Both the position numbers and the translations under genes were made by a program. Of a stretch of DNA of 30,489 nucleotides, positions 4,174 to 7,565 are shown piece by piece; positions within the stretch are counted from its first letter, which is position 1, and the number at the start of each line of letters is the position of its first letter. The stretch is from positions 1 through 30,489 of the IMG/VR virus record IMGVR_UViG_3300009425_000059, one strand, 5' to 3'. The notes beneath the pieces are model-generated. The model had not been told where the DNA came from and searched no databases. It worked only from the letters and a program-made list of their open reading frames with translations. This DNA comes from a virus.

Positions 4174-4340
4174 TGCGCAAAGACAAATTAAAAGTTGGAC
4201 AATTTGATCACTACAAACGTTGGACGTCTAATGAAGGTTACACATTTTTAGCTAAAGATTTGGCTGATGCAGAACTATATCAAAAAAAGATGAATTTGGC
4301 TGGCAAGCTTTCGGAGGTAATAGTTGAAACAAATAATTAA
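4173..4340 (+). CDS. Small hypothetical protein (55 aa)
   Basis: ATG at 4173 overlaps the preceding stop (TAATG) and has AGGAG at 4161-4165. The product is soluble and charged ([18 protein letters not shown], then a helix [21 protein letters not shown]). It ends at TAA 4338-4340 and overlaps the start of the deformylase gene by 17 bases. The overlaps on both sides and the good ribosome-binding site argue that this short frame is a real gene. No family recognised. Confidence 0.6.
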
Positions 4341-4923
4341 TTGTCTCAAGCACAAAAATCCTGTTATAAAAAAGAAGCTTAAAGAAGTCACGCTTGAAGA
4401 AGGTGAAAAAATTGCAGCAGAATTATTTAACATTTTGGCAGAAAGAAAAGATGGTGTTGGGCTGGCTGCTAGTCAAGTTGGAATCGATGCTGCTGTTGCT
4501 GTGGTTAATGTTAGAGAACCAATTGCATTAATTAACCCTAAGGTTGTTAGTGTTGGCGATGAAGTAGCTTATTATGAAGGGTGCTTATCTTTCCCAGGCA
4601 AAGGTGTTAACACAACACGCTTTGAAACAGTTGAGATCACATCTGAAAATGTTGATGGCACCATGGTATTCAGCGGATGTGAAACACAAGGTGGTGACTC
4701 ATGGGGCACATGGGAAGCACAACATGACGCAAGTGATGATCGCGAAATGAGAATGTTAGAAGCAGTTGCTATTCAGCATGAGATCGATCACTTAAATGGT
4801 ATTGTTTGTATGGACAGAAGAATTGATGCGACAGTTAGAAGAACAGAGCCTAAGTTAGGACGTAATGATCCTTGTGAATGTGGCAGTGAAAAGAAATATA
4901 AGAAATGTTGTCTCAACAAATGA
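4324..4923 (+). CDS. def: Peptide deformylase with C-terminal SEC-C zinc motif
   Basis: Peptide deformylase removes the N-formyl group from new proteins at the ribosome exit. All three metal-site motifs are intact: motif 1 GVGLAASQ (44-51), motif 2 EGCLS (85-89, metal ligand Cys87) and motif 3 HEIDH (152-156). Between motifs 2 and 3 there is an acidic, Gly/Trp-containing stretch (about 115-145) longer than usual. Residues 179-196 are a SEC-C motif, [10 protein letters not shown] followed by KKCC (Cys184, Cys186, Cys195, Cys196), the zinc-binding element known from the SecA C-terminus. The start is TTG at 4324 behind GGAGG; no ATG lies before motif 1. Deformylases occur in cyanophages and vibriophages; the SEC-C fusion is the odd part. 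The 3' end overlaps the next gene as ATGA. Confidence 0.95.
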
Positions 4924-7061: not shown

Positions 7062-7158
7062 AAGATATGGGCCCGCTGGGTATCGACGGGTGTTTTTTGA
7101 CAATTGAGTGCAGCAGAGTTTGAACAAGACTCGAGACAAAAGGTTCACTAATCAATAT

Positions 7159-7272
7159 GGCGATAATTCGCTAGACGGGTTGGTAATAGATTGGCATTTA
7201 GCCGATACTGATTCAGCACCATTTATTGGGGCTGAGTCGGCTTACCAACCAACTTACGCCTTCGCGGCTTAA
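7159..7272 (+). other. Proposed tmRNA tag reading frame, 37 codons
   Basis: GGC at 7159 lies 11 bases after the end of PK1, the same spacing as in E. coli, with A at position -4. The frame is open for 37 codons to TAA 7270-7272. The peptide would start GDNSLDG and end AYQPTYAFAA; the final AA after an aromatic/hydrophobic run is the usual protease-recognition end. The other two frames stop within a few codons. A later resume codon (GCT 7231 or 7240) would give an ordinary 13- or 10-residue tag but is 83 or more bases from PK1. Confidence 0.6.
7178..7250 (+). repeat. Large hairpin inside the tmRNA tag region
   Basis: GGTTGGTAA (7178-7186) is perfectly complementary to TTACCAACC (7242-7250). 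Inside it, GCC (7201-7203) pairs with GGC (7239-7241) and GATTCAGC (7210-7217) with GCTGAGTC (7231-7238, one G-U). The 3' arm is therefore 20 contiguous paired bases, with bulges only on the 5' side. It lies wholly within the tag frame. Confidence 0.75.
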
Positions 7273-7565
7273 GTTATTGGGTTGTTCAACACCCGGTTAT
7301 AAAATAAGTTGAACACAAACTCGTTGGCCATTTTGGAGTATAACCAAAACCCAGTTAAAGGATACGTTCTGCAAAAGAAATCCACATGGTTGTTTGTTGG
7401 CTACTACCGATAGAAGCTAACTAAGCTGTAACGACTCATTGCTGATGGCAAACCGGACGGGAGTTCGAATCTCCCCGGGTCCACAAAAAAATGAAAATAA
7501 GTAAAAAAAAGCCTTTCATCGCATTAAAAAATGTTATAGATTCTATTAACAACAAGGAGTACGCC

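Follow-up and report, generated by a model that had tools for sequence, protein, structure and literature searches.

A long, conserved tag frame folded as RNA in the tmRNA of marine T4-like phages

What is a folded segment doing in the middle of the tag frame of a phage-encoded tmRNA? The question is raised by a T4-like phage piece of 30,489 bases from IMG/VR (hereafter the window) in which baseplate-wedge and peptide deformylase genes are present. ARAGORN and the Rfam model RF00023 agree on one tmRNA (ssrA) gene in the window, at 7069-7486 on the plus strand, the strand of all parts of the gene described below; its covariance-model score of 70.1 bits exceeds the gathering score of 47, and the alignment spans model positions 1-374. 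Both gene ends form the tRNA-like domain, which in the RF00023 alignment has an acceptor G3-U70 pair, the G-U pair that confers alanine identity, while CCA is not encoded at the 3' end, which reads CAA. Pseudoknot 1 (PK1, 7116-7147) was read from the sequence and lies in the PK1 region of the RF00023 alignment, with GAG at 7116-7118 pairing with CTC at 7130-7132 and TGAAC at 7121-7125 pairing with GTTCA at 7143-7147. Downstream of the tag, the alignment and the relatives identify a PK2-like segment (GTTCAAC...GTTGAAC) at 7276-7318.

Between these two elements an open frame (7159-7272) runs from GGC at 7159 through 37 codons to the stop TAA at 7270-7272, encoding a 37-residue tag, GDNSLDGLVIDWHLADTDSAPFIGAESAYQPTYAFAA (7159-7269). 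ARAGORN places the tag start at 7204, inside the structure described below; we judged this call to be wrong and infer that GGC 7159-7161 is the better start, because it lies 11 nt past the last base of PK1 (as read by eye) and has an A at -4. That A, which we take to correspond to A86 of E. coli, was present in 96 of 101 distinct relatives, and the other five, which are longer by a codon, had it one codon further upstream. Both the short step after PK1 and the A at -4 that mark a tmRNA resume codon are therefore found in the window. In E. coli the resume codon follows PK1 by 12 nt (PMC2481249). Across the 101 distinct tmRNAs the tags were 34-43 residues long, mostly 35-39, with one of 49 in which the usual stop was lost, and the length differences kept the frame. 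Frame 0 held no stop in 3765 codons, against 234 and 459 stops in the other two frames, in a count for which the frame downstream of the conserved motif was read up to its first stop; that this first stop always fell within the same narrow range, the single long case apart, is therefore the sign of a kept frame. The long case was L117, in which the tag passes the usual stop, reaches 49 residues and ends in NTRT; the tag of L168 does the same, and the tmRNA sequence of that locus is the same as that of L117 by score and span.

Folded alone, the segment at 7178-7250 reached -36.2 kcal/mol, compared with -15.4 +/- 2.8 for 200 dinucleotide shuffles, none of which was as good (z = -7.54), and the minimum free energy structure of the whole tmRNA contains the same fold. 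The preliminary description of a palindromic element within the tag frame was thus upheld, with its shape corrected from a simple hairpin to a three-way junction, in which a 9-bp stem closes off two arms. The strands of the closing stem, both supported by the fold and by covariation, are GGTTGGTAA at 7178-7186 and TTACCAACC at 7242-7250, the latter over the YQP codons. In the fold, arm 1 (7190-7206) covers the IDWHLAD codons and arm 2 (7208-7240), which differs between subfamilies, covers the variable middle of the tag. Within 7231-7250, all 20 bases of which had been described as complementary to upstream segments, 19 are paired. On either side of the junction stand a start hairpin at the resume codon (TGGCGA-TAAT-TCGCTA, 7158-7173), recognised from pairing in the relatives, and a tag-end hairpin over TYAFAA and the stop (7251-7275), seen in the consensus fold. 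The latter is the equivalent of helix 5 and is separate from the element, as had been proposed; it also holds that the element is in frame and that the tag would be of normal length without it.

At least 101 distinct complete relatives with the long tag were collected. Of 80 loci obtained by searching with the HD-domain protein encoded nearby, 14 had the tmRNA by nhmmer, whose listing also includes the window's own copy (L001) and L003, which shares its contig with L015. IMG/VR was also scanned with a degenerate codon pattern for GLxIDWHxA, which gave at least 134 loci including the window and its copy, and all 134 viral loci among the matches listed were tmRNAs of the long-tag family. Because this pattern itself forces the motif, the search was extended to two patterns from outside the tag, located in the PK2 segment and in the 5' part of the tmRNA, respectively. 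Among the loci collected, 140 had an outside-tag pattern, seven of them cut by a contig end, and the long tag was present in all 133 readable relatives; no relative without the segment was found among the 133, both patterns being derived from the long-tag family and thus liable to miss more distant tmRNAs. The outside-tag set keeps IDWQF-type variants, and its core variants are IDWQF and VDWH. The set of 101 leaves out 16 of 156 loci, whose tmRNA was cut or lay at an edge, and a further 2 of 103 distinct sequences (three loci) that are IDWQF variants, because the motif expression required His; it includes one contig of a metagenome-assembled bacterial genome (L223). Applied to 84,980 genomes of bacteria and archaea, the codon pattern matched 23 stretches: a long-tag tmRNA with a strong score in MAG bacterium TMED198, two Pedobacter loci whose match to the tmRNA model was limited to the motif and its surroundings (28 positions), and 20 stretches that did not match the model. 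The INPHARED phages gave no tag match to an approximate query, composed by hand from several family tags.

The peptide itself is under selection. In 89 distinct tags of the outside-tag set, sampled without using the tag, pN/pS for the core codons 7-15 was 0.15 in frame, compared with 0.53 and 1.08 in the shifted frames, and for codons 1-18 it was 0.48, compared with 1.26 and 1.08. The C-terminal codons of the 101 set gave 0.25 in frame and 1.96 and 1.90 in the shifted frames. For codons 16-19 the value was 0.84, and for codons 1-6 it was about 1.1 in both tag sets, with no purifying signal, perhaps because the start hairpin limits synonymous change. Protein-level selection thus acts on the core and the C-terminal end and was not detected in the first six codons. 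The conserved front reads GDxSLxGLxIDWHLA[E/D/N], with the IDWH core and the QPTY/YAYA end strongly conserved; the tag ends in YAFAA in the window and in YAYAA or YAYA in relatives. Searches with the tag peptides yielded only chance-level matches in the PDB and no family in Pfam or PHROG, and AlphaFold models of 40 tags had a pLDDT of 65 and no confident fold.

The RNA is conserved beyond the need to encode this peptide. Each of the 101 tags was more stable than versions of itself shuffled among synonymous codons, at a mean z of -2.05 and with 60 tags below -2; with family codon usage as the reference, the mean folding z was -2.80. The closing-stem pair 9.3-39.1 (codon and codon position) was formed in 93 of the 101, as six standard pair types, against 54 expected if the two positions were independent; it ranked third in excess pairing among 3741 position pairs, and on a tree built without the tag, 18 pair-keeping double changes were inferred at this pair against 6 breaks. 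The neighbouring pair 9.2-39.2 was often broken, being kept in only 51 of 101. In the start hairpin, GGC/TCG was found in most sequences and GGT/TCA in 3 of 101, and in the tag-end hairpin the pair between the third bases of codons 45 and 47 showed one of the strongest excesses. A comparison of six relatives of equal length revealed changes on both sides, in at least one sequence, for 12 of the 49 consensus pairs, and the interior arms of the junction varied between subfamilies. At the core, Gly7 was encoded by GGG in 89 of 89 tags and Leu8 by TTG in 85 of 89. The preliminary description had held that presence of the segment in all relatives, with no compensatory changes in its stems, would speak against it; the segment is indeed in all 133, but the stems do show such changes.

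Based on these data, we concluded, with a probability of roughly 0.78, that the element forms the central part of a long tag, translated and structured, in a phage-encoded tmRNA. A tmRNA is loaded with SmpB and adds its own alanine followed by the tag, and the front of the E. coli tag is the docking site of SspB. By analogy, host SmpB and alanyl-tRNA synthetase would load the phage tmRNA on stalled ribosomes and decoding would resume at GGC 7159, the ribosome unwinding the start hairpin, then the three-way junction and then the tag-end hairpin, so that alanine plus 37 residues would be appended to the stalled chain. The best reading of the tag is a bipartite one, with a usual C-terminal degron and a conserved N-terminal motif encoded in folded RNA. 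The YAFAA, YAYAA or YAYA end would act as an SsrA-type degron, and the conserved front motif, in parallel to the E. coli tag, probably docks a protein partner; candidates are a protease adaptor and other factors of phage or host. Folding would hold this stretch of about 110 nt compactly within the tmRNA and may set the pace of tagging. No SmpB match was found in 11 large family records (67-165 kb, possibly fragments), and host SmpB would therefore be needed; in the same 11 records plus the window (12 in all, possibly fragments) there was likewise no SspB or Lon match, while two of them have a ClpP-fold match that may represent a head protease. The long conserved tag and its folded RNA together suggest that these phages change the fate of rescued proteins.

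A more specific version of this last idea, a trans-translation system peculiar to these phages with a dual-coded tag, in which GLxIDWHLA is an effector or docking motif that directs rescued proteins of host and phage to a fate other than ordinary ClpXP turnover, and the overlapping junction sets the speed of tag reading or the host in which it takes place, we regard as possible but tentative. It is unlikely that length alone matters, with a tag about as long as the exit tunnel pushing the whole stalled chain out of the ribosome and its sequence being incidental. The narrow length distribution, kept despite a freely varying middle, would fit such a role, as would the tmRNA of the uncultured phage LR756508.1, which has an unrelated open frame of similar length; the conservation of the IDWH core and the QPTY/YAYA end, however, speaks against length as the sole reason.

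Slightly less likely again is a short real tag of about 10-22 residues, with the junction as an RNA domain that separates PK1 from the tag and is not translated. ARAGORN does start the tag inside or after the junction, predicting GNDQPTYAYAA in L020 and L034, and, apart from the core, conservation is highest in the C-terminal codons. The core codons upstream of the ARAGORN start, however, have their low pN/pS only in this one frame, which survives the length differences, and a GGY codon with the expected A at -4 stands 11 nt beyond PK1.

In contrast to these possibilities, a mobile element of the Rickettsia type inserted in the tag is very improbable, and we rejected the preliminary comparison along with any stray or mobile insertion: the element belongs to the long tag that defines a tmRNA family of marine T4-like phages. 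Rickettsia palindromic elements are folded segments within a frame, and the phage element shares this property and could be removed with the frame unchanged. Bacteroidota tags such as GENNYALAA also resemble the two ends of the phage tag (GDN...YAYAA), which makes an ancient insertion conceivable. Rickettsia elements, however, are dispersed as copies in unrelated genes and occur in one homolog while its close relatives lack them, whereas the phage element is single and its core codons are under purifying selection. No second copy of the palindrome, which the preliminary description had suggested looking for, was found in the window or in any of the 101 related loci, the motif occurred only in tmRNAs among the matches listed, and none of the 133 readable relatives had an empty site. 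Just as improbable is programmed bypassing or excision, by which the junction would be skipped or cut out to leave a normal tag: as a stem-closed segment in frame it resembles the gap of phage T4 gene 60, but codon-level selection and exact frame-keeping within the segment argue against both, and unless the ends were rejoined, cutting would interrupt the tag message.

The long, structured tag sets this tmRNA apart from those already known. Compared with bacterial one-piece tmRNAs, it shares the tRNA-like ends, PK1, the context of the resume codon, an SsrA-like degron end and the tag-end hairpin, but its tags of 34-43 residues, some fourfold the usual length, contrast with 8-10 in most sampled bacteria, and it adds the conserved inner motif and an in-frame three-way junction. 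Among 66 tmRNAs called by ARAGORN, nearly all bacterial (the two phage ones being L253 and L318), tags were 8-10 residues long except for three of 14, 20 and 21; that of 20 (L253) belongs to the phage family and results from an ARAGORN tag start set too far downstream, and that of 14 (L273) we judged a doubtful call. The tag of Mesoplasma florum tmRNA has 27 residues and is read by Lon. Mesoplasma and Mycoplasma tags are similarly longer than usual and end like YAFA, but are shorter than the phage tag and unrelated to it in sequence, and they are not known to contain an RNA junction. Reviews give a tag range of 8-35 residues, descriptive and not defining; the tag of the window, with 37 residues, lies above it, and those of the relatives have 34-43, with the one of 49. 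The marine myophages Melnitz and Mosig also carry ssrA, described as a permuted two-piece tmRNA of alphaproteobacterial type (PMC9004378), whereas the tmRNA here is one-piece with a Gly resume codon. In the literature searched, as far as its full text was accessible, we found no paper on so long a phage tag. Conservation in known tmRNAs is confined to the resume codon and its successor, and the remaining frame is replaceable (PMC4236655). The tag here is long, conserved and folded, so that selection seems to act on the tag itself, which supplies a concrete peptide and RNA for asking why phages carry tmRNA and whether trans-translation is affected by structure within the frame.

Other window genes, most often those directly downstream of the tmRNA, were shared by 96 of the 101 loci. 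The closest matches to the baseplate protein were in Microcystis phage Mel-JY01, LR756508.1 and Flavobacterium phage immuto, and the only near isolate for the HD protein was phage immuto, in which no tmRNA was found. A tree of tmRNA ends placed 27 phage sequences in one clade (support 0.999) beside four Bacteroidota with GENNYALAA-like tags, the latter placement with a support of only 0.679. The loci L004-L012, L016-L019 and L033 are close relatives by the HD protein (81-86% identity), with no tmRNA found in the stretch examined; the tmRNA may have been gained or lost within this clade or may be located elsewhere. The peptide deformylase of the window (4324-4923, from PHROG matches) has a C-terminal CxC...CC tail that looks to us like a SEC-C zinc motif. 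The tmRNA of LR756508.1 lies at 92434-92877 (L318:1501-1944), and its open frame of about 35 codons, unrelated to the long-tag family, has a GGC with A at -4 and ends in KPAAV; a search for further tmRNAs like it found nothing more. The same phage also encodes, at 414804-414915 (L320), an RNA of 112 nt whose match to tmRNA, at 58 bits, is limited to the tRNA-like ends and which resembles the TLD-only RNA reported for mycobacteriophage DS6A.
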